A stretch of 64,000 bases of DNA from Selenomonas ruminantium AC2024 (GTDB lineage Bacteria > Bacillota > Negativicutes > Selenomonadales > Selenomonadaceae). Below the pieces are notes generated by a model, which was not told where the DNA came from, did not search any database, and saw only the letters and a program-made list of their open reading frames with translations. Shown one piece after another: positions 1-48,314 of the stretch. A program made the translations under genes and the position numbers. How positions within the stretch are numbered: the first letter of the stretch is position 1; each line of letters starts with the position of its first letter. The stretch lies in assembly GCF_000687995.1 (NCBI RefSeq), contig NZ_JIAC01000001.1:2232001-2296000 (forward strand), in the 5' to 3' direction.

Positions 1-537
1 GGCCTTGCTGTAGCGCTCCTCCTCACTGAAGATACATCCGCAGTAAGGCTGGCGGTAAAGCTCCAGCTCCTGGCTGATGTCAATGCCCTCCTGCCAACCG
101 GGACGGAAATCTTCATAGTAGAATTGCACGCCATACTGCGCGGCAAAACGCTCTGCCGTCCGCTTCATTAAATCATGCTGCTGGTAAATGCTGTAAAAGA
201 GCGTCGATGTAAAGGCATCAAAGCCATGCTCCGCCGCAAACCGCGCCGCTTCCTCCAACCGCCAAGTATAGCACATGGTACAGCGGCCATTGGGCATGGC
301 TTCTGCCGGCAGGGCCCGCTTCAGAAAATCCCGCAGGAGGTAATTTTCGTCCGCGAAAAATTCCATCTGGACCTTTTCCGCAAACTCCCGCGCGGTATTG
401 AGACGCATCTCCCACTCTTTGTACGGGTGGATGTTGGGATTGAAAAAATACCCAACCGGCTCAATGCCATCGGCCCGCAGTTTTTTCACCGGATAACAGG
501 AACACGGCCCGCAGCACATATGTAATAGTAACTTCAT
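1..537 (-). CDS. queH: Epoxyqueuosine reductase QueH, 3' end outside window
   Basis: QueH reduces epoxyqueuosine to queuosine in tRNA anticodons (the non-QueG type). The frame is open from ATG at 537 to base 1, giving 179 codons with no stop, so the C-terminus lies outside the window. Visible signatures are the N-terminal MCCGPCSCYP motif, a second RCTMCYTWRL motif near residue 95 and a third PYCGC motif near residue 170. These are the cysteine clusters expected to bind the iron-sulfur and metal centres. It lies 12 bp downstream of ruvB on the same strand, so it is probably the last gene of a ruvA-ruvB-queH operon. The family call is firm; the exact end is unseen. Confidence 0.9.
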   Translation of the reverse strand, partial: MKLLLHMCCGPCSCYPVKKLRADGIEPVGYFFNPNIHPYKEWEMRLNTAREFAEKVQMEFFADENYLLRDFLKRALPAEAMPNGRCTMCYTWRLEEAARFAAEHGFDAFTSTLFYSIYQQHDLMKRTAERFAAQYGVQFYYEDFRPGWQEGIDISQELELYRQPYCGCIFSEEERYSKA

Positions 538-549
538 AACCACAAACTC

Positions 550-1578
550 CTATTCCGGATAAGCAATGCCCAGATGCTCGTAGCCCGCCTTCGTCACCAC
601 GCGGCCGCGGGGCGTACGGTTGATAAAACCGAGCTGAATGAGGAATGGCTCAAACACATCCTCCACAGTATCCGTACTCTCGCTGATTGCCGCCGCCAAC
701 GTGTCGAGTCCTACCGGGCCGCCGCCAAACTTCTTAATCATGGTCAAAAGCATGCGCCTGTCCGTATGGTCAAGGCCTGCCTTATCCACTTCAAGCAGAG
801 ACAATGCCTTATCGGCAATCTCGTCGGTGATGACGTCCTTGCCCTCATACTGCGCCACATCCCGCACACGCTTCAAGAGACGGTTGGCAATACGTGGGGT
901 TCCCCGGGAACGGCGCGCAATTTCCATAGCCCCTTTATCCTCAATGGGGATTTCCAAAATCTCTGCCGCACGCTTGACAATCGTCACCAATGCCTCCGGC
1001 GTATAATACTCCAGACGGGAAATGATGCCGAAACGGTCACGCAAAGGCGCCGCCAGCGAGCCCGCTTTCGTCGTAGCGCCAATCAGCGTAAAGGGCGCAA
1101 TATCGAGCCGGATGGAGCGGGCACTTGGCCCCTTGCCGATAATAATATCCAGCGCAAAATCCTCCATGGCCGAGTACAGCACTTCCTCCACGCTGCGAGA
1201 CAAGCGGTGAATTTCATCAATAAAGAGTACATCATGCTCCTGCAGATTCGTGAGCAGCGCCGCCAAATCCCCCTGCCGTTCAATAGCCGGGCCGGAGGTC
1301 TGCCGGAAATTTACACCCATTTCATTGGCAATGATTCCCGCCAGCGTGGTCTTCCCCAGCCCCGGCGGGCCGTAGAGCAGAACATGGTCCAGCGAATCGC
1401 CGCGGTTCATCGCCGCCTGAATGAAAATCTCCAGATTCTTTTTGGCCTTGTCCTGGCCAATGTATTCACTTAACTTGCGGGGGCGCAGGCTGTACTGCCA
1501 ATCATCCGTCCGCTGCTCGTCCATGGCCACAATGCGGCCATCATCAATATCCATATCGTAAAAATCTTCTTCAGCCAA
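550..1578 (-). CDS. ruvB: Holliday junction branch migration helicase RuvB
   Basis: RuvB is the hexameric AAA+ motor that drives branch migration with RuvA. The 342-residue product has full family length: Walker [12 protein letters not shown] near residue 70, Walker [10 protein letters not shown] near 120, sensor motif GATTKAG near 165, an arginine-finger region, and the C-terminal winged helix ending in [17 protein letters not shown]. The start is a TTG at 1578, chosen because AGGAGG lies nine bases upstream and no ATG fits. It follows ruvA by 15 bp on the same strand, so translation is probably coupled. Confidence 0.96.
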
Positions 1579-1593
1579 GCCTCAACCCTCCTG

Positions 1594-2196
1594 TTAAAAT
1601 TTATTCAACTGCTTAAGCGCCAGCTTGATGACTTCTTCCGTCGTCTTGCACTTGGTCGCCTTCTTGAGCACCGGCGCGATTTCGGCCTGACTATAACCCA
1701 GAGCCACCAAAGCCGCCTGCGCTTCACTCATCATATCGTCGCCAGTCGGCCCTTCCAAATCCAACGTCAGAATTTCTTCCACATCATCAGCCGCCGCAAA
1801 AGCAACCTTGTCCTTCAGTTCCAAAATCAGCCGCTCCGCCGACTTCTTGCCAATGCCCGGCAGTTTCGTCAGCACCGTGGCCTGCTTGTTCTGAATCGCC
1901 TTGCAGAGACTTTCCACCGTAATGGCCGACAAAATCCCCAGCGCCACCTTGGGCCCGATACCCGAAACACCAATGAGCAGCTGAAAGATATCGTACTCTT
2001 CCTCACTGGCAAAGCCATAAAGGGTAATGCCGTCCTGATAAACATTCATATAGGTAAAGAGCTGGGCTTCTTCCTTGAGCCGTAATTTATTCCGGGTGGA
2101 ACCGGCCACGAATACCCGATAGCCCACGCCATTCACATCCAAAAGGCAGTAGTCAGCTTTCAGCGCCGCCACCTGTCCCCGCAAAAATCCAATCAT
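1594..2196 (-). CDS. ruvA: Holliday junction branch migration protein RuvA
   Basis: RuvA tetramers bind four-way junctions and load RuvB. The 200-residue product shows the N-terminal OB fold (MIGFLRGQVAAL...), the tandem helix-hairpin-helix motifs (LIGVSGIGPKVALGILS near residue 80 and LTKLPGIGKKSAERLILELK near 115), and a C-terminal RuvB-binding domain (EAQAALVALGYS). It opens the ruvA-ruvB-queH unit. The upstream neighbour is separated by a strong hairpin, so transcription probably starts in the 120-bp gap. RuvC is not adjacent but about 9 kb away. Confidence 0.96.
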   Translation of the reverse strand: MIGFLRGQVAALKADYCLLDVNGVGYRVFVAGSTRNKLRLKEEAQLFTYMNVYQDGITLYGFASEEEYDIFQLLIGVSGIGPKVALGILSAITVESLCKAIQNKQATVLTKLPGIGKKSAERLILELKDKVAFAAADDVEEILTLDLEGPTGDDMMSEAQAALVALGYSQAEIAPVLKKATKCKTTEEVIKLALKQLNKF

Positions 2197-2261
2197 CTGG
2201 TACCTTCACTCCAATAATCAATCGATAACCTGTAACCTTATTAGTATAGCACGAATGACAA

Positions 2262-2295
2262 GGGGCTGACCAGTCAAAATTGACCGGTCAGCCCC
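2262..2295. terminator. Hairpin of two TTGAC-N2-GTCAA units, likely terminator of the CYTH gene
   Basis: GGGGCTGACCAGTCAA and TTGACCGGTCAGCCCC face each other across two bases, making a 16-bp stem with one mismatch. The core of each arm is a 12-bp palindrome unit (2266-2277 and 2280-2291) of the repeat family described in the findings; the GGGG/CCCC clamp is extra. It lies 25 bp past the CYTH stop on the minus strand, but the T-run after it is weak (TTGTCATT). Confidence 0.6.
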
Positions 2296-2319
2296 ACGCT
2301 CGCCACGACCTCACCATTA

Positions 2320-2805
2320 TCATTCACACTGCAAAATTTCCCGCACAATGTCCACGCCCCTTGCCTGCGCCAATGTGCCATAGGAAAACCGGACATCATC
2401 CGTAACTTCCCGGCCGAACCAGGTAGGTGGCACAAACTTTTTAGCCCCTTCCACATCCGAAAATTCGACTTCCACATAATTGAAGCCTTTCAGATGGCCT
2501 GCATGTACATGCAGCTCGGCCACCAAACTATCCGCCAAAGGGATTTTATAGCGCCGTTTCTCAATCATACAGGTTCCGGGACACAGCCGCTCCGACAGAC
2601 TAGCAAATTCCTGCCGGGAAACTTCCGTCTCCCATTCCTCCCGTACCAACCCGGCACCGCGCTTGACCGTAAGCCAAAAATGACTGTCCCCAATCTGCCG
2701 AATCCGGATTTCCGGCAGCAACGCCACATACCCCTGACGCAGCAGCTCATATTCTTCGGGCAGCTGCGGAAGCCTGTCTACTAAAAATTGCCGCTCTATT
2801 TCCAT
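2320..2805 (-). CDS. CYTH-domain protein (adenylate cyclase/triphosphatase-like fold)
   Basis: The 161-residue protein begins MEIERQFLVDRLP, the N-terminus of CYTH proteins, which use a beta-tunnel to bind triphosphate substrates (inorganic triphosphatase, thiamine triphosphatase or class IV cyclase). Further charged strands fit the fold: EIRIRQIGDSHFWLTVKRG near residue 35, IEKRRYKIPL near 100 and YVEVEFSD near 130. The family signature is ExExK; here the lysine is Q6, read from a clear CAA codon. Substrate cannot be deduced. It stands alone between two repeat hairpins. Confidence 0.8.
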   Translation of the reverse strand: MEIERQFLVDRLPQLPEEYELLRQGYVALLPEIRIRQIGDSHFWLTVKRGAGLVREEWETEVSRQEFASLSERLCPGTCMIEKRRYKIPLADSLVAELHVHAGHLKGFNYVEVEFSDVEGAKKFVPPTWFGREVTDDVRFSYGTLAQARGVDIVREILQCE

Positions 2806-2898
2806 ATAGCTTATCCTGCTCCTTTATAAAGGCTCCAGTAAATCCCTCATTAGTATATCGCTATAGCGATACACAATCAAGAAAATCCCACCATAAAA

Positions 2899-2965
2899 GG
2901 CTGACAGGTCAAAATTTGACTTGTCAGCCCCCCTGAAATTGACTTGTCAATTTTTGACATGTCAA
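2899..2965. repeat. Cluster of four TTGAC-N2-GTCAA palindromes
   Basis: Units lie at 2901-2912, 2916-2927, 2939-2950 and 2954-2965; the last two are exact and the first two have one end mismatch. The first pair folds as GGCTGACAGGTCAAA against TTTGACTTGTCAGCC, a hairpin suited to ending transcription of the upstream small gene. The fourth unit contains the TGA stop codon of the 76-residue ORF next to it. Confidence 0.85.
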
Positions 2966-3192
2966 TTTGACAAAAACTTGTTAGGTTCCGTTTCTTCCAG
3001 TATCTGCACCAAAACTCGATAGTCCAAATACTGAATTCCCTCCATGCCATTATGAATTTTATCAGCCAACTCACTGCCATAATATATGTGCATGGCTTTT
3101 TCCAGTGGTATTGCCTTCTCCTTAGCCAGCTGCGCAATAATACGTTCTTCCAGTTTTTCCTGATAGACCTGTTCCAAAACATTTTCGTCCAT
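2962..3192 (-). CDS. Small hypothetical protein, third gene of a DUF3791/DUF3990 module
   Basis: This is a 76-residue, highly charged, probably all-helical protein (MDENVLEQVYQEKLEERI...). I do not recognise a function. It starts three bases past the stop of the broken DUF3990 gene and ends inside a TTGAC repeat unit, whose TGA it uses as stop. Proteins of this general type (ending in a GIQYLDYRVLVQIL-like segment) commonly sit next to DUF3990 genes, from general knowledge of such loci. It may be the partner of a now inactive gene. Confidence 0.6.
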   Translation of the reverse strand: MDENVLEQVYQEKLEERIIAQLAKEKAIPLEKAMHIYYGSELADKIHNGMEGIQYLDYRVLVQILEETEPNKFLSN

Positions 3193-3195
3193 GCC

Positions 3196-3387
3196 TTACA
3201 CCTCAAAGTATGAATCGTAAATCAGTAGTTTATCAATGGCTTTCTGCGTTATGAATGGAATGCTATCTGGTCGTAATTGGGATAGGCTTTTATTTCCTTT
3301 AATGCTCTATCCTTCTCCCAAATGCCTGTACGAATGCAAAACATCCGGCTTTTTGATTATCTCTGTCGAGCCGTGATAGACTATCAT
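3196..3387 (-). pseudogene. Decayed DUF3990 gene (ADP-ribosyltransferase-like)
   Basis: An ATG at 3387 overlaps the DUF3791 stop as ATGA and opens MIVYHGSTEIIKKPDVLHSY, the typical start of DUF3990 proteins, but meets TAG after 26 codons. A second frame then reads DRALKEIKAYPNYDQIAFHS up to a TAA, and a third reads TQKAIDKLLIYDSYFEV to a TAA at 3196, which together look like the family C-terminus. About 190 bp remain of a gene normally near 450-500 bp, so there was a large internal deletion plus frameshifts. The HGS motif resembles that of ADP-ribosyltransferase folds; this is inference. Confidence 0.75.
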
Positions 3388-3599
3388 ATCTTCACACCTC
3401 TTATCCGCAAATATTCTCTAATATCGTCCACTAAATAAGCACTGCCCTGCGTATGGAGTATATCATAATTAGGTACGAGATATTCATCAATACAACCAGT
3501 CTCCTGCAATTTACCATATACCTGCTTAGGAGAAAGCTTCCATTTATTGGCGCAAGCGTGAATCATGTAGACTACAAATTCCATGCTGTCCTGATTCAT
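3384..3599 (-). CDS. DUF3791 domain protein
   Basis: The 71-residue protein (MNQDSMEFVVYMIHACANKW...) matches the small DUF3791 family: EFVVYMIH at the start, LSPKQVYGKLQETG in the middle and a YLVPNYDILHTQG segment. ATG at 3599 is preferred over an in-frame TTG at 3605 because GAGGGG lies six bases before it. DUF3791 genes are usually coupled to DUF3990 genes, as the ATGA overlap here shows. With DUF3990 broken, this gene is an orphan, possibly the remaining half of a toxin-antitoxin-like pair. Biochemical role unknown. Confidence 0.7.
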   Translation of the reverse strand: MNQDSMEFVVYMIHACANKWKLSPKQVYGKLQETGCIDEYLVPNYDILHTQGSAYLVDDIREYLRIRGVKI

Positions 3600-3655
3600 A
3601 GTCAACCCCTCATTTCCCTTTGACTCTCATTATAATAAGTATATAACAACAGTTG

Positions 3656-3667
3656 TTGACCGGTCAA
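3656..3667. repeat. Single exact TTGAC-N2-GTCAA unit
   Basis: One exact 12-bp unit with centre CG, followed at 3670-3680 by a half unit (GTCATGTCAA). It lies between the DUF3791 start and the chemoreceptor terminator. The site is close enough to the DUF3791 start to act as an operator, though nothing shows that it does. Confidence 0.7.
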
Positions 3668-3696
3668 ACCGTCATGTCAATCAACAGATGCAATAC

Positions 3697-3731
3697 AAAA
3701 GACCATCCTACCATGTCAAAGTGGGATAGTC
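3697..3731 (-). terminator. Terminator of the FIST/chemoreceptor pair
   Basis: On the minus strand GACTATCC pairs with GGATGGTC (one G-U) and is followed by TTTTG, 28 bp after the chemoreceptor stop codon. Confidence 0.6.
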
Positions 3732-3759
3732 TCATGCATTAAGCTATACTTTTGGTTAT

Positions 3760-4758
3760 TTACCTTTGTTTCCCCAACAGCCATTTGACCTGCCGCAGGA
3801 AGTCAATCATGCTGCAGGCAATTACGTTCTTTTCACTCATCAGCTCTTTTAAGCCGTGAATGTTCTGGCGCATCGTGGTGACCAAACCGCCCACGGAGCC
3901 TGCGCCTTCGGCTACTTCGTCCATCATACTACTGGTTTTATGGATGCCATCCACAATGCGATGACTGTAATCGCCTACACTTTCTGTACTCTTGGTCACA
4001 TCGGCAAAACTCTCCTGTACCTTGCCCACAAAAGTGGCATTTTCCAAGGTTTTTTGCCTGGTCTGTTCAATGGCCTGACTCATTTCACCGATGGATTGAT
4101 AGAGCGCATTGATATTCGTGTCAATCCCTTCCACCAATTCTTTGGTCGAAGCGGCCAGCTCGCGGATATTTTCGGCCACGATACTGAAGCCGCGGCCTGC
4201 CTCACCAGCTCGCGCAGCTTCAATCGAAGCATTCAGGGACAGCAGATTCGTACGGGTCGCGATGCCTTCGATGCCTTCCGACATCTTTTTAATATTGGCA
4301 AATTTTCCTTCCACTTCCTGAAATACTGCGTTAATCTCGTCAAGATTTCCTTCTATCTCCTGCATTTTTTCCGACAGTGCACCGATATCATTGCCCGCAC
4401 CACTGACCACGGTTCTAGAGGTGTCCATTATATTGGAAATGTTTTGGGCATATTCTTCCAGATTATTAAAATGTTCATTCAGGTACGTAAAGTCCTTATT
4501 TACCTGACCGATTCCCGCATAGGTTTCCTGCATCTTCTGCACGTATTCTGCAATACCGGTTTCAGCCTGCGTGAGTTCATTCATGCGTTCATCAAGATAA
4601 TCGATGCCATAGGCAATCTGACGGTTCACATTCGCCTGCGTTTCCGGCACCGGTGCTGACGGTGTCGGCCTCGGTACCGCCGTATTCATCGCCTGTTTTT
4701 CTGCGGCTCTTTGGTTATAAAAAGGCTCTTTTTTTCTGCCGAAATCAAAGATTCCCAT
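3760..4758 (-). CDS. Soluble methyl-accepting chemotaxis protein
   Basis: The 332-residue protein has no transmembrane segment or periplasmic sensor. After a proline-rich N-terminus it is a long helical MCP signalling domain, with the kinase-binding hairpin tip ATRTNLLSLNASIEAARAGE near residue 190 followed by GRGFSIVAENIRELA. It should sit in the cytoplasm and act on CheA/CheW or a paralogue. ATG at 4758 is chosen because AAGAGGTG precedes it; the in-frame GTG upstream overlaps that site. It lies 12 bp after the FIST gene, so the FIST protein is the likely ligand-sensing partner. Confidence 0.88.
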   Translation of the reverse strand: MGIFDFGRKKEPFYNQRAAEKQAMNTAVPRPTPSAPVPETQANVNRQIAYGIDYLDERMNELTQAETGIAEYVQKMQETYAGIGQVNKDFTYLNEHFNNLEEYAQNISNIMDTSRTVVSGAGNDIGALSEKMQEIEGNLDEINAVFQEVEGKFANIKKMSEGIEGIATRTNLLSLNASIEAARAGEAGRGFSIVAENIRELAASTKELVEGIDTNINALYQSIGEMSQAIEQTRQKTLENATFVGKVQESFADVTKSTESVGDYSHRIVDGIHKTSSMMDEVAEGAGSVGGLVTTMRQNIHGLKELMSEKNVIACSMIDFLRQVKWLLGKQR

Positions 4759-31097: not shown

Positions 31098-32312
31098 TTA
31101 ATGAACCTGCGGCGTCTGCACCGGCACTGCCGCCGTATTGCCATAGAATTTCAACGCCGTGGCAATCAAAAGATTCAGCACAAAGCAAGCGCCAAAGAAG
31201 TACAAGGTATCTGCATAACTATGGGTGTGTTCCCAAAACCACGCTACGATGGTCGGCCCCACTACACCAGCTACGCCCCAGGCGGTGAGCACGCGGCCGT
31301 GGATGGCGCTGAGTTCTTTCGTGCCAAAGATATCGGAAAGATACGCCGGCATGCAGGAAAAGCCGCCGCCGTAGCAGCTGATAATCAGAAACACCAGCAT
31401 TTGGAACAGCATAGCATCACGGGTGCCTGCCAACAGCCAGAACGCAGCTGTTTCCAGCGCAAAGAACACCATATAAGTAAGCCCGCGGCCCAGATAATCC
31501 GAAAGTGTTGACCAAAGGATGCGCCCGCCGCCATTTAAGAGACCGATAATACCCACCATCGAAGCTGCCTGTGCCGCATCCATGCCCGTGACCTGCTGGG
31601 CCATCGGCGAAGCCACCGCCAACAGGCCAATGCCGCAGGTAATGTTGACAAAGAATATCCACCAAAGCGCACCGAACTGCCAGGTCTTAATGGCTTCGGC
31701 CGCCGTTGCACCATGCTGCAGTTTCTTGACTACAGAACTTCCTTCCGGCAGTACCGGCGGCTGCAGATACATAGCCGACGCGCCAATCAGCACCATATAG
31801 ACCGTGCCCAGAATCAAGAAATTTTCCACCAGACCAAACTGCGCCGTCAGATACTGCATCACCGGCCCGGCAATGAGTGCCGCAAAGCCAAAGCCCATAA
31901 TGGCCAGCCCCGTGGCAAAACCGCGGTGATTGGGGAAATACTTAACCAAAGTCGATACCGGCGTAATGTAGCCCACGCCCAAACCGATGCCGCCAATCAC
32001 ACCATAGAAAAGATAGAGCAGCGGCAGGCTGTGAAGATAAAAAGCCAGCGCCGTGCCGAACATCCCTGTCCCAAAGAAAGACATGGACAAAAGACCGCTT
32101 TTCTTCGGACCATGTTTTTCCACAAACCGCCCCAAGAAACCTGCGGACATGCCCAAAAACAGAATAGCCAAAGAAAACGTCCAAGTCGTCTCCGACAGAC
32201 TAAAGCCCATTTCCGCCATAATCGGACGGGTCAGTACACTCCAGGCATAGACGCTGCCGATGGAAATATGAATTCCCACTGCAGCCAGAGCAATCAACCA
32301 ACGATTCCGCAT
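31098..32312 (-). CDS. MFS transporter, oxalate/formate antiporter (OFA) type
   Basis: The 404-residue protein has twelve hydrophobic segments and starts MRNRWLIALAAVGIHISIGS followed by VYAWSVLTRPI, the OFA family N-terminus. GFLGRFVEKHGPKKSGLLSM is the motif A loop; IGLGVGYITPVSTLVKYFPNHRGFATGLA near residue 115 is typical of OFA carriers. ATG at 32312 is preferred because AAAGGA lies eight bases upstream. Members move oxalate, formate or other carboxylates; the substrate here is open. Hairpins of similar sequence flank the gene on both sides. Confidence 0.85.
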   Translation of the reverse strand: MRNRWLIALAAVGIHISIGSVYAWSVLTRPIMAEMGFSLSETTWTFSLAILFLGMSAGFLGRFVEKHGPKKSGLLSMSFFGTGMFGTALAFYLHSLPLLYLFYGVIGGIGLGVGYITPVSTLVKYFPNHRGFATGLAIMGFGFAALIAGPVMQYLTAQFGLVENFLILGTVYMVLIGASAMYLQPPVLPEGSSVVKKLQHGATAAEAIKTWQFGALWWIFFVNITCGIGLLAVASPMAQQVTGMDAAQAASMVGIIGLLNGGGRILWSTLSDYLGRGLTYMVFFALETAAFWLLAGTRDAMLFQMLVFLIISCYGGGFSCMPAYLSDIFGTKELSAIHGRVLTAWGVAGVVGPTIVAWFWEHTHSYADTLYFFGACFVLNLLIATALKFYGNTAAVPVQTPQVH

Positions 32313-32370
32313 GAAAACCATCCTTTCTGCTGTATAAACAGCAACCGAAAAGAGATTTCCCCCGCGGCAA

Positions 32371-32408
32371 AACAAAAACCGCCTGGACAAAATCTCTGCC
32401 CAGACGGT
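32371..32408 (-). terminator. Hairpin with T-run in the transporter leader (possible attenuator)
   Basis: On the minus strand ACCGTCTGG pairs with CCAGGCGGT (one mismatch) and runs into TTTTTGTTTTG about 60 bp before the transporter start. It resembles the terminator after the gene. It either ends transcription of the small upstream gene or attenuates the transporter. The rest of 32409-32630 shows no gene. Confidence 0.6.
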
Positions 32409-32630
32409 CGGCTTATCTTAACCATACAGTGCATGTGGTCATTTCCACTAATCCGTCAGCCCTGCATGGCCTGTTTACTTTTGCAATTAGTATATCAGCA
32501 TCCATAGGATTATGTCAATGGATTTTCTTCTCTTGTCAAAGCGACTGTATAATTGGGAACTATCAGCAAACAAGTAAGCACTACGTAAAACCATATTTTT
32601 TTCATGACATGCCCCTTCTTGCTATTCGAC

Positions 32631-34490: not shown

Positions 34491-34526
34491 TTCGCTTTCG
34501 TAAGGAACAACAAGCAGGCAGAAAAG

Positions 34527-34566
34527 CGGGGCTATGCATACACTTATGCATAGCCCCGTTTAGTTT
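34527..34566 (+). terminator. Strong hairpin after the gene remnant
   Basis: CGGGGCTATGCATA pairs perfectly with TATGCATAGCCCCG across a four-base loop and is followed by TTTAGTTT. Confidence 0.8.
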
Positions 34567-34612
34567 AGCCCGTTGTCACTACGAGCTTTTTCTTATTTGT
34601 TACAACTCAGCT

Positions 34613-34808
34613 GGGTGGAGGTGGTAATACTTTTCGCCGTTGCACTAAATGACCCTCAAGCAAATGTATGGGCTTTTTAGTTACCTGCGCCGGGCAAGAC
34701 CGGCGGCGCGTATGTTCAGCCCAATGTTTTAGTTTGTGCCTTTTATGGGCCAGTCCTCACTTCGTTCGGACAGTCGTTCCACGCCGAAAAGCATCACCAC
34801 CTCCGCCC
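34613..34808 (-). repeat. Structured ~195-bp element, copy 1
   Basis: The element has long complementary ends: GGGTGGAGGTGGTAATAC at 34613 and the complement of GGGCGGAGGTGGTGATGC at the far end, continuing for about 33 bases with few mismatches. Internal blocks (AGTTACCTGCGCCGGGCA at 34679 and CCTCACTTCGTTC at 34755) recur in copy 2 in the opposite orientation. No reading frame of note lies inside. Strand is assigned by the direction in which arm differences become G-U pairs. It could be a structured RNA or a palindromic mobile element. Confidence 0.7.
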
Positions 34809-34917
34809 TAAGCAATGTCCGTACCAACTATCATTTTCGTGGTGATAAGGAGCTAAAACATCGATGTTCTTGTTACGGGAGCAACGAGTTCTCGCCGATT
34901 GTATAATTCATCGCTAT

Positions 34918-35110
34918 GGGTTCACGGGGGAGTGATTTTTCTGTCAGGAGCAACTGCCTGAACGAAGTGAAGGCCGGCCCCTGCAGGAATCAGCTAAGCA
35001 AATACGCTGAAAGAAGCGCCGTTGGCCTGCCCGGCGCAGGTAACTGGACATCGCTCTTTTTCGAAGGGGTCGTTTAGCGGAAAACAGAAAAAATACTCCC
35101 CCGTGAACCC
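34918..35110 (+). repeat. Structured ~195-bp element, copy 2 (inverted)
   Basis: Ends GGGTTCACGGGGGAGTGAT and ACTCCCCCGTGAACCC pair over about 27 bases (through ATTTTTTCTGT) with a single difference. These ends are unrelated to those of copy 1, yet the length (193 against 196) and the internal blocks (CCTGCGCCGGGCA, TTCACTTCGTTC, CTAAACGACCC on the minus strand) match copy 1 reversed. The 109 bp between the copies and the 62 bp after copy 2 show no gene. Confidence 0.7.
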
Positions 35111-35172
35111 TGAACAACATATGAGCGGGATACCTTTAGCACAAACTGACAAGCAGCACTTTATATGTTATT

Positions 35173-35970
35173 TCACCGCAGCCGCATGACGCCGTACTGT
35201 ACTTTGCTGTATCGGCCGCCTGCCCGTTCCGTAAATCCCAGTCGGGCAAATTCGCGGCTCTTGCTGGATTCTTTGAGTACAATGCGGTGCCTTGCCACTC
35301 TGCGGGCTTCGGCGATTGTCTCTAAGGTCAGCGGATTTTTATTGGCCACGGGGCGCAAAGGCGCAATGTTCTTGCTTTCCGCGAAGGGATGGCGGAACAT
35401 GGGGTCAAAGTAGATGACATCCACGGAGTTGTCCGGCTGGGCTTTGAGATAATCGTAAGCCTCGGTGCAGACGGTCTTTACCCGGCGCATGGCGGCAATC
35501 ACTGTGTCCGTATCGTTAGTGTAGTTAGCCAAACCATAACCCACCACCGCTTCAATGAGCGGCTGGGATTCAAGGCCCGTAACGCTGCCGCTGTCGCCAA
35601 CCACGGAGCTGGCCACAATGGCATCGGCGCCGAACCCCAATGTACAGTCGAGCACATCCATGCCCGGCTTTAAGTCCATGGCTTCGGCCATGCGGTCGCC
35701 ATCACCGAAGCGCAGGTTTTTCAAGCGCAGATGGGCCATATTTGGATGAAAGAAAAGTTCTGCTTCCGGCGTCACGAGCGTCAGCAGGCCTTTTTTCGCC
35801 ACCAATGCAAACTTGGCGTCATAACTCTGGCAAAGCTCGGGTATATTCGTGCGCCCGCGTTCGGCGTAGGGAATATGCAGCCGCTCTGCCATTTCCCGGG
35901 CCAGTTTTTCACTGGGGCGGTTCCATTTGCGGCCAGTGGTCGCTATGGCCGGCAATTTATTTTCGTTCAA
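35173..35970 (-). CDS. Class I SAM-dependent methyltransferase (RsmJ/DUF548-like)
   Basis: The 265-residue protein has a Rossmann methyltransferase core: motif I VLDCTLGFGADAIVASSVVG near residue 110, an acidic loop GLESQPLIEAVVGYG, and the catalytic-type DVIYFDPMFRHPF near 195. The order and DPMF motif resemble RsmJ, the 16S rRNA m2G1516 methyltransferase, though the Firmicutes homologues may act elsewhere. The start is a TTG at 35970 with only GGATAG upstream. It lies 17 bp after mutL on the same strand. Confidence 0.75.
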   Translation of the reverse strand: MNENKLPAIATTGRKWNRPSEKLAREMAERLHIPYAERGRTNIPELCQSYDAKFALVAKKGLLTLVTPEAELFFHPNMAHLRLKNLRFGDGDRMAEAMDLKPGMDVLDCTLGFGADAIVASSVVGDSGSVTGLESQPLIEAVVGYGLANYTNDTDTVIAAMRRVKTVCTEAYDYLKAQPDNSVDVIYFDPMFRHPFAESKNIAPLRPVANKNPLTLETIAEARRVARHRIVLKESSKSREFARLGFTERAGGRYSKVQYGVMRLR

Positions 35971-45675: not shown

Positions 45676-46722
45676 TTATCGCTCCATTAACATAATCTTC
45701 TCCGGCGGGAAATAAAGATAGAGTACCGCCGGTTCCTTAAGGCGGCGCCATTCCTCCTTGGAAAGCTCCCAGCGCAAAGGGCGCGCCTCGGTTCCCTGAC
45801 GCCGCAGCATCACAAGATAGGAAAACACATCTTCGACCACATTGACCACGTCCATCGCAAAGGTATTTTCCTGCATCTTCGGCTTAATTTCCATAAAATG
45901 GGCCCGGATTGCGGCGTAGCGGAGATTTTCCGGCACCTGACCTGCCACCTGCAGTTCCAGCTGCCAGTCCTCCGCATAAATTCTATCCGCTGCCAGCCTG
46001 CGGGCTGCCGATACATTCTTGCAGCCCGTAAGGAGAGTTGCCGCTAAAGTGTCCGGACTTTGGAACAGCCCCTGCTTGGTATGCACCGCCTCCATCTTTC
46101 CCTGATTGATGACGGCAATTCTATTAGCCAGGCGGTAGACCTCTCCGCGGTCATGGGACACCAATAGCGCCGCGCCATGGTAGTCCTGCAGCACAGCCGT
46201 AAGTTCCATTTCCAGCTGCCATTTCAGATAGCTATCCAGCGCCGAAAAGGGCTCATCGAGCAGCAGCAGTTCATTGTCCGCTGCCAGAATTCTGGCCAGG
46301 GCTGCCCGCTGCTGCTGGCCCCCGGAAAGCTCATGGGGATAAGCTCCCGCCAGGCCCCCCAGCTTAAACCGGGCCAGATTCTCTGCCGTCCTGCGCTGTT
46401 TTTCCGCACGGCTGCCGCCAGCCACAAAGGCGATATTTTCCGCCACGGTCATGTTGGGAAAGAGCGCATAATTCTGGAAGAGATAGCCCACCCTGCGCTG
46501 CTGTGGTTTTAAGTTTATGCCCGCTTCGCTGTCGTAGAGTACGCGGCCGTTGAGCACAATCCTGCCCTTGTCCGGTTTTTCCAAACCCGCAATACATTTC
46601 AGCGTCATGCTCTTGCCGCAGCCCGAAGCCCCCAGCAGGGCGAACACCTCATCACGCAGGGAAAAATCGGCCTGCAGGGTGAAATTGCGCAGCTGTTTTT
46701 CGATATTCACCGTCAGCTCCAT
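45676..46722 (-). CDS. modC: Molybdate ABC transporter ATP-binding protein ModC
   Basis: The 348-residue protein has Walker A LGASGCGKSMTLKCIAGLE near residue 35, Q-loop VGYLFQNYALFPNMTV, signature ELSGGQQQRAALARIL near 130 and Walker B LLLLDEPFSALDSYLK. The C-terminal part is a TOBE/Mop-like regulatory domain. ATG at 46722 follows GGAGGGG and overlaps modB by 10 bp, which excludes the longer frame. Confidence 0.9.
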   Translation of the reverse strand: MELTVNIEKQLRNFTLQADFSLRDEVFALLGASGCGKSMTLKCIAGLEKPDKGRIVLNGRVLYDSEAGINLKPQQRRVGYLFQNYALFPNMTVAENIAFVAGGSRAEKQRRTAENLARFKLGGLAGAYPHELSGGQQQRAALARILAADNELLLLDEPFSALDSYLKWQLEMELTAVLQDYHGAALLVSHDRGEVYRLANRIAVINQGKMEAVHTKQGLFQSPDTLAATLLTGCKNVSAARRLAADRIYAEDWQLELQVAGQVPENLRYAAIRAHFMEIKPKMQENTFAMDVVNVVEDVFSYLVMLRRQGTEARPLRWELSKEEWRRLKEPAVLYLYFPPEKIMLMER

Positions 46723-47384: not shown

Positions 47385-48170
47385 TTATTTTACCTCAAAA
47401 CCATATTTTGCAAATAACTTCTTATTATCATCATTGCCCACAAAGTTCAAAAAATCTTTGGCTGCCTCCGGATGCTTGCTGTCCTTCAGCATGGCAGCCG
47501 GATAAACAATGGGCTTATGACTGCCTGCCGGGGCCTTCGCTGCCACCCTGACTTTTTTCGACACCGCTGCATCCGTAGCATAGACCACGCCGCAGTCCGC
47601 ATCACCGGTTTCCACCCAGGAAAGCACCTGGCGCACATCGGAACCATAGACGGCCCGCCCCTTTATGGCCTCAAGTATGCCCAGTGAGGTAAATACTTCC
47701 TCCGCATACTGGCCCACAGGCACACCCTTAGGTTCTCCTAAGGCAATATGCTGAATATCCGCCCGGGTCAGCTCCTTAAAATCCTGCAAGGACTTGCCGC
47801 CCTCTGCAGGCACAATCAGCACCACTTCATTGATGAGCAAATCCCTGCGGGTTCCCTCGGCCAGCAGCCCATCCTTTTCCAAGGCATTCATCTGCTTCTG
47901 GGCCGCCGAGAAGAATAAATCCGTTTGACCGCCGTTCTGGATGGCCTGCTGCAGGGCACCGGAACTGCCAAAGTTAAAGACCACTTTGACATGGGGATGT
48001 TCCTTTTCGTAAGCAGCCGCTATCTCCTGCATTACATCGGTAAGACTGGCTGCCGCTGCCACATGCAATTCCACATTCCTGTCTTTCTGCTCCGGCCGGG
48101 CCTGCTCACTACCGCAGCCCACAGTTAGCAGGGATAGTGCTGCCACTATCCAGACCAAAACTTTTTTCAT
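47385..48170 (-). CDS. modA: Molybdate-binding lipoprotein ModA
   Basis: The 261-residue substrate-binding protein has a lipoprotein signal (ALSLLTVGCGSEQ, cysteine at residue 19), then VAAAASLTDVMQEIAAAYE and FNFGSSGALQQAIQNGGQTDLFFSA, the oxyanion-binding motifs of ModA. It opens the modABC unit and is preceded by a structured leader. Confidence 0.94.
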   Translation of the reverse strand: MKKVLVWIVAALSLLTVGCGSEQARPEQKDRNVELHVAAAASLTDVMQEIAAAYEKEHPHVKVVFNFGSSGALQQAIQNGGQTDLFFSAAQKQMNALEKDGLLAEGTRRDLLINEVVLIVPAEGGKSLQDFKELTRADIQHIALGEPKGVPVGQYAEEVFTSLGILEAIKGRAVYGSDVRQVLSWVETGDADCGVVYATDAAVSKKVRVAAKAPAGSHKPIVYPAAMLKDSKHPEAAKDFLNFVGNDDNKKLFAKYGFEVK

Positions 48171-48179
48171 TTGTCTTCA

Positions 48180-48298
48180 GCTCCTTTTCAAATGAGGAAG
48201 GTGCGGCAATTTCTCGCCACGCCCTGAGAACGCTCTGCGTTCTGGCTCAATATCATAGCCCAAAGGCCTTAGATATTTTTGCTCGGAAACTACAGACA
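48180..48298 (-). promoter_or_regulatory. Structured leader of modABC, possible Moco/Tuco riboswitch
   Basis: The 130-bp modA leader folds into nested stems: ATATCTAAGGCC against GGGCTATGATAT, GAACGC-AGA-GCGTTC, and GTGGC against GCCGCAC just before the CCTTCC region and the ribosome site AAAGGAG. The molybdenum cofactor riboswitch is known upstream of modABC and Moco genes, so position and structure fit, but I could not match the consensus base by base. Confidence 0.4.
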
Positions 48299-48314
48299 TT
48301 ATAGCAGAAAAAAA

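Follow-up and report, generated by a model that had tools for sequence, protein, structure and literature searches.

The window analysed here is a stretch of 64,000 nucleotides from the Selenomonas ruminantium AC2024 genome, which consists of one contig of 2,831,713 bases (hereafter G000). Among ordinary neighbouring genes, coding for an IMS-type DNA polymerase, a putative methyltransferase and MutL, the window contains one copy of a structured intergenic repeat of ~0.6 kb. An earlier sequence-only reading had described at this place two elements, E1 (34613-34808) and E2 (34918-35110), which lie in opposite orientation and share their inner blocks, and had proposed a new structured RNA or a mobile palindrome. 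The positions, the orientation and the shared blocks are as described there, but the two elements are the two halves of a single repeat unit and not separate elements. Alignment of the 31 copies of G000 gave the order of the unit as outer inverted repeat, short arm, E1, centre, E2, short arm and outer inverted repeat. The outer inverted repeat reads AAATTGCAGTTTGT ... ACAAACTGCAATTT in the aligned copies; in the window copy its left part has no recognisable counterpart. Matches found by blastn to copies in G000 and its relatives cover ~34571-35150 of the window. The features of the window copy are listed below, the strand of the modules and helices being the folding strand.

34565-35162, no strand: whole repeat unit, with decayed outer ends and approximate bounds (31-copy alignment of G000)
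34613-34808, minus: module E1, with P1 (28 bp), P1b, P2 hairpin with tandem G-A, P3 and P5
34781-34808, minus: 5' strand of E1 P1, pairing with 34613-34640 over 28 bp
34613-34640, minus: 3' strand of E1 P1, pairing with 34781-34808
34809-34917, no strand: centre between the modules, with a conserved block (centres of 15 genomes aligned)
34857-34868, no strand: central palindrome AACATCGATGTT; ACATCGATGT in nearly all copies shown in the 15-genome alignment
34918-35110, plus: module E2, with the same fold as E1
34918-34944, plus: 5' strand of E2 P1, pairing with 35084-35110 over 27 bp
35084-35110, plus: 3' strand of E2 P1, pairing with 34918-34944
35149-35162, no strand: right outer inverted repeat, decayed, ACAAGCAGCACTTT here versus ACAAACTGCAATTT in other copies
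34527-34558, no strand: host terminator-like hairpin adjoining the left end of the unit, which also flanks the orthologous site (L093) in a metagenome assembly (G011)

A blastn search of G000 detected full-length E1 at 31 places and full-length E2 at 33. Comparison of the two lists by position revealed an inverted E2 ~110 bp from E1 at all 31 E1 places, while two E2-type modules, near 297,700 and 2,696,900, lacked an E1. A covariance model of the module (R1; 166 positions, 37 pairs) matched 18 of the 22 genomes of the genus at E <= 0.001, including 75 matches in G000, 79 in G011 and 50 in a single-contig chromosome (G017); at this threshold no module was found in G010, G018, G019 and G021. Across the class, 26 of 380 genomes, belonging to 7 of 102 genera, were matched at E <= 0.01 with stricter filters, of which the three weakest (G325, G326 and G278) may represent chance matches. 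In 20 stretches, taken from outside the genus and from its distant members, the model detected 29 modules, all of which span model positions 1 to 166. Outside the genus, the modules are single or arranged as same-strand tandems (L302, L303 and L304), and they share no common neighbouring gene: of 19 neighbouring open reading frames (ORFs) scanned, 11 belong to ordinary Pfam families and 8 to none, some of the latter perhaps being wrong frames. The exact 24-mer around the central palindrome occurs in 74 stretches of public genomes, each from a record titled Selenomonas ruminantium or Selenomonas sp. AE3005, and has no match among viral contigs. No description of such a repeat in Selenomonas was found in the open literature.

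A blastn search with the unit retrieved nothing in phages and matched one plasmid record. The "plasmid pSR1" record (NC_002139.1, L265, 4692 bp) matches a chromosome contig of G013 with 100% identity over 184-4420. Its length is exactly the distance between two direct unit copies in G013:C49:8500-15800 (L274; positions 1209 and 5901 of the reverse complement); judging by these sequences, pSR1 looks like a circle or a product of recombination between direct unit copies. Three copies in G017 (C1, near 1946390, 1247149 and 1088133) are deleted internally and retain their outer parts alone. A bias towards the origin, with the contig start taken as the origin, was dropped as a property of the family, the Kolmogorov-Smirnov p value being 0.012 in G000 (24 of 33 lie in the half closest to the ends of the contig) versus 0.47 in G017 (16 of 25).

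Read outward from the centre, i.e., on the minus strand for E1 and the plus strand for E2, each module comprises P1 (28 or 27 bp), P1b, a P2 hairpin with two G-A pairs, P3 and a P5 hairpin. The inner helices were misplaced by RNAalifold alone, and the structure was therefore drawn up manually, guided by mutual information. In an alignment of 52 E1 sequences from 15 genomes (A1; 51 pairs), 94.0% of 2650 cells are paired and both sides have changed in 17 of the 51 pairs. The covariation score was 0.215, versus 0.111 in shuffled alignments, in which relatedness is not kept (A1, like alignment A2, includes closely related rows), and at most 0.062 when the partners were slid. A mixed alignment of E1 and E2 (A3; 31 sequences) had 87.7% of its cells paired, with both sides changed in 18 of 37 pairs and a score of 0.296, versus 0.136 shuffled and at most 0.084 slid. 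Across genera, both sides have changed in 30 of 37 pairs (0.395 versus 0.128), counts that lean towards the structure because this alignment was made by the covariance model itself. An unbiased check was provided by the flanks outside the model, where a helix of at least 9 was present in 15 of 29 copies, versus 12.2% of swapped flanks; an earlier score of the flanks was 5.9 versus 3.0.

On the outward strands of 117 E1 and 110 E2 sequences, G.U cells were more numerous than A.C cells in P1 of E1 (269:97), P1b (84:3), P3 (95:1) and P1 of E2 (166:79); P2 had two of the former and one of the latter, and P5 had neither. The consensus energy is likewise better outward (-139.0 versus -124.4 and -156.2 versus -143.4). 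The wobble bias and the energies fit a folded RNA or a single DNA strand of outward polarity, without telling the two apart. The stop-free runs of the 31 copies (57-143 codons) resemble those of shuffled sequences (mean 89.5), and no coding signal is thus apparent. At the gathering threshold no Rfam family matches the unit, either in the window or at 9 loci from other genomes; matches at a permissive threshold, considered as a possible identity, were at chance level alone. The complementary ends, the choice of strand and the lack of an ORF, all proposed from the letters alone, hold, and the test set beforehand, namely many further copies with covarying ends, gave 31 paired units in G000, strong covariation and the wider occurrence described above. 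The twins proved to be one unit, with a fold that is common to several genera and whose strand may be RNA or single-stranded DNA.

The evidence for mobility and exchange at the level of DNA (site turnover, flips and mosaics) is as strong as that for a structured nucleic acid. Most sites occupied in G000 are occupied in G011 as well, the flanks agreeing on both sides, and a few are also shared with G017 (L001, L012 and L027, by both flanks). At 10 of 22 orthologous sites of G000 and G011, a set that excludes three G000 loci matching one single G011 locus, the unit is inverted with respect to its flanks, and where the outer repeats are intact they form the boundaries of the flip (e.g., L013/L106). 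Orientation also differs between the window copy and its counterpart in G011, in spite of the decayed or missing outer repeats of these two copies. The inner sequences of G011 could be partly chimeric, owing to its metagenomic origin, while its local boundaries should be safer; independently of G011, two of the three sites shared with the G017 chromosome are flipped.

Sequence similarity among the copies follows their sites poorly. In a ranking of 16 G000-G011 pairs, the ortholog was first or second in 7 cases and tenth or lower in 9; nine further loci were outside the ranking, their duplicate module sequences having been dropped or no full pair having been found. When the halves were ranked separately, against 32 entries of G011 with a few loci in duplicate, the ortholog came first in 4 of 22 cases for E1 and in 6 for E2, frequently for one half without the other. 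On these comparisons, the copies are mosaics and have undergone strong sequence exchange, while the flip at L004/L107 retains the ortholog as best match. Mean identity was 0.970 within G017, 0.867 within G000 and 0.722 between G000 and G017, and the copies of G000 and G011 were not separated (0.868). Five G011 sites were checked in G000 by flank search, one of them by one flank alone: L092 and L097 lack the unit, L111 carries an E2-type remnant, and the flanks of L105 are 3 kb apart.

Other mobile elements have entered the units. Five units of G017 are split by an IS1182-like insertion sequence (IS) of 1.71 kb, which encodes a 491-residue transposase with DUF772 and DDE_Tnp_1 domains. The foot of P1 is the insertion point in all five, four times in E1 and once in E2, in both IS orientations and with ~9-bp repeats on either side. 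The IS seems to recognise the hairpin rather than the letters, since the letters of E1 and E2 differ at the insertion point, and these insertions support the formation of a hairpin by the DNA. Targeting of inverted repeats by structure is reported for IS1272 (PMC5678879), which resembles the G017 visitor, although not the unit itself, in this respect; there, new insertions replace the target repeat without duplication, in contrast to the ~9-bp repeats that flank the IS in G017. The left flank of another unit (L094, in G011:C3) resembles, by eye, the end of a group II intron adjoining the unit. The intron-like flank and the IS insertions suggest that the units may attract other mobile elements.

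The reading we favour, with a probability of about 0.5, is that the unit is a REPIN-like, non-autonomous mobile element, a folded strand of which is recognised by a putative factor. One structured module of ~285 bp would have been duplicated in inverted orientation, and the module pair, bounded by the outer inverted repeat TAAATTGCAGTTTGT, would spread as a unit into the intergenic DNA of S. ruminantium and its close relatives. Each module would close, on its outward strand, into a three-way-junction fold, and selection would act on the fold and not on the letters as a result of its recognition by a trans-acting host factor. Movement would be provided for in trans, the folded form acting at the DNA or the RNA level during copying, and the likeness of the two ends would let copies be swapped, undergo conversion and settle again at a given site in either direction. 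What is observed in this reading is the number of copies, the conserved fold with its strand bias, the mosaics and flips at shared sites, the turnover of sites and the occurrence of the module beyond the genus; the mobiliser, the recognising factor, the level of action and any benefit to the host are inferred.

Several observations weigh against this reading. No mobiliser was found among the two transposase types sought: the Y1 transposase (PF01797), present in 13 of the 22 genomes of the genus, is absent from G000, G011, G017, G001, G002 and G006, and IS110 is absent from G000 and 7 others of 14 genomes tested; both were rejected as mobilisers because G000 lacks them. TA lies beside 46 of 72 left ends, 32 of 72 right ends and both ends in 21 of 72, cannot be distinguished from a longer inverted repeat, and is accompanied by no clear target duplication. 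The centre is conserved beyond what a passive spacer would need, fitting a promoter or an operator. One of the five covariation measures, further pair types, did not rise above the shuffles (36 versus 40.3 in A1 and 36 versus 37.8 in A3), and ordinary recombination between copies could be the source of the exchange and the flips.

The main rival starts from that conserved centre. Two host RNAs of ~200 nt would be transcribed outward from divergent promoters within it, the many copies providing dosage and being homogenised by gene conversion, as in ribosomal RNA genes. We regard this as a tentative possibility. It agrees with the outward fold and its G.U bias, with the strong covariation and the RNA-like tandem G-A of P2, with the very conserved centre and its palindrome, and with the presence of the module in most genomes of the genus and the vertical persistence of the sites; the genomes of the genus that lack the module speak against it. 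In 34500-35200, the one copy scanned, no sigma-70 type promoter was matched, versus 0.7 in shuffled sequences, and the -10-like letters of the centre differ, by eye, between species. Moreover, by crude ORF calls, the 31 copies of G000 lie between tandem (16), convergent (10) and divergent (5) genes alike. A doubtful proposal would see in the family a bacterial counterpart of short interspersed nuclear elements, i.e., mobile structured RNAs spread across a bacterial family, whose folded RNA is the form copied or recognised and whose paired copies are homing units, continually converted and flipped. An ordinary IS-derived miniature inverted-repeat transposable element (MITE), moved to TA targets by a DDE transposase and folded only incidentally, is unlikely. 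The size, the intergenic location, the outer inverted repeats, the lack of a coding signal and the TA beside many ends are all as expected of such an element, whereas the compensatory changes speak against an incidental fold and the inner modules are conserved across genera in which the outer repeat was not noticed. Moreover, a search of G000 for a longer relative with the same ends (at most one mismatch) revealed none, 33 of 34 outer-repeat sites belonging to units by position; the remaining site (46386-46399) holds no module.

A site-specific recombinase that flips the unit at its outer repeats and thereby alters the expression of neighbouring genes would account for the orthologous flips bounded by these repeats, and for L004/L107, where the flipped unit is still closest to its ortholog. 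Such an inversion switch is nevertheless improbable: most flipped units have also been replaced by the sequence of another copy, the window copy differs in orientation from its ortholog despite the state of their outer repeats, and inversion of so nearly symmetric a unit would alter little. Very improbable, finally, is an RNA-guided element acting in trans, of the IS110 bridge-RNA or the TnpB/IscB omega-RNA type, with the hypervariable loops as guides. The RNA-like module, with loops that differ among the copies of one genome, would suit it, and in G005 an IS110 gene lies ~0.3 kb from a module (C3:156879-157046 and 157332-157775); a bridge RNA is unlikely because IS110 is missing from G000 and the seven other genomes. 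As guides to their own flanks, the loops were rejected, sharing no excess of 8-mers with them on the same strand (10 versus 10.2, standard deviation 3.6) and a weak excess on the other (23 versus 15.9, standard deviation 4.0). Rfam gave no match to HEARO or another family, and the four window neighbours are the IMS polymerase, the methyltransferase, MutL and a major facilitator superfamily (MFS) transporter, no genome-wide search for TnpB/IscB having been made.

Further features were observed in the window and in G000. Matches exceeding the Rfam gathering score were obtained for the ZMP/ZTP riboswitch (32391-32473, minus strand), directly upstream of the MFS transporter (31098-32390), and for the molybdenum-cofactor riboswitch (48166-48300, minus strand). 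A second dispersed palindromic repeat of ~100 bp (…CCCGGTGGCTGATAATGC…GTATTATCAG…CACCGGG…) has dozens of matches in G000, e.g., at 455701-456009, 2724127-2724234 and 1262308-1262412.

The family appears to be a previously undescribed group of structured repeats, in which a complex fold is held across genera while letters, orientation and neighbours change. Two questions can now be put to the test in a rumen bacterium that can be cultured: which factor recognises the fold, and for what reason ~30 copies are kept. It also serves as a warning that repeat copies flip and recombine in Selenomonas genomes, as seen in the agreement of the length of pSR1 with the segment between two direct chromosomal copies.

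Several known systems resemble the unit in part. As described for them (PMC3116915, PMC8049555), REPINs likewise combine two structured, inverted modules and a spacer in one intergenic unit, occur also as singlets, show compensatory changes and form long-lived populations. In contrast to the short repetitive extragenic palindromic (REP) sequences, the module here is ~200-285 bp long and contains a three-way junction with a 28-bp P1 and internal helices; the centre is conserved, whereas the spacer of REPINs is conserved in length; and the unit flips and forms mosaics in place. The unit cannot be filed as a REPIN, because the Y1 transposase (RAYT) is absent in G000, as it is in G011 and G017. 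MITEs and the BOX, RUP and ERIC repeats, according to two further reports (PMC10969869, PMC3049150), are also small, non-coding and intergenic, with pairing inverted ends and RNA-like folds, and BOX is modular. The unit shares with MITEs the terminal inverted repeats, the lack of coding sequence and the many dispersed copies. It differs from all of these repeats in that no related autonomous IS was seen in G000 (at most one mismatch to the ends) and in that the module is kept across genera; any membership among the MITEs would be tentative, as neither a clear target duplication nor an autonomous relative was seen. The large or multi-copy structured RNAs of Rfam resemble the module in their complex folds with covariation support and differ from it in the missing match at the gathering threshold. 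The unit falls within a known kind, that of small dispersed palindromic elements; what is new here is the size and complexity of the fold, its spread across genera and the flips in place.
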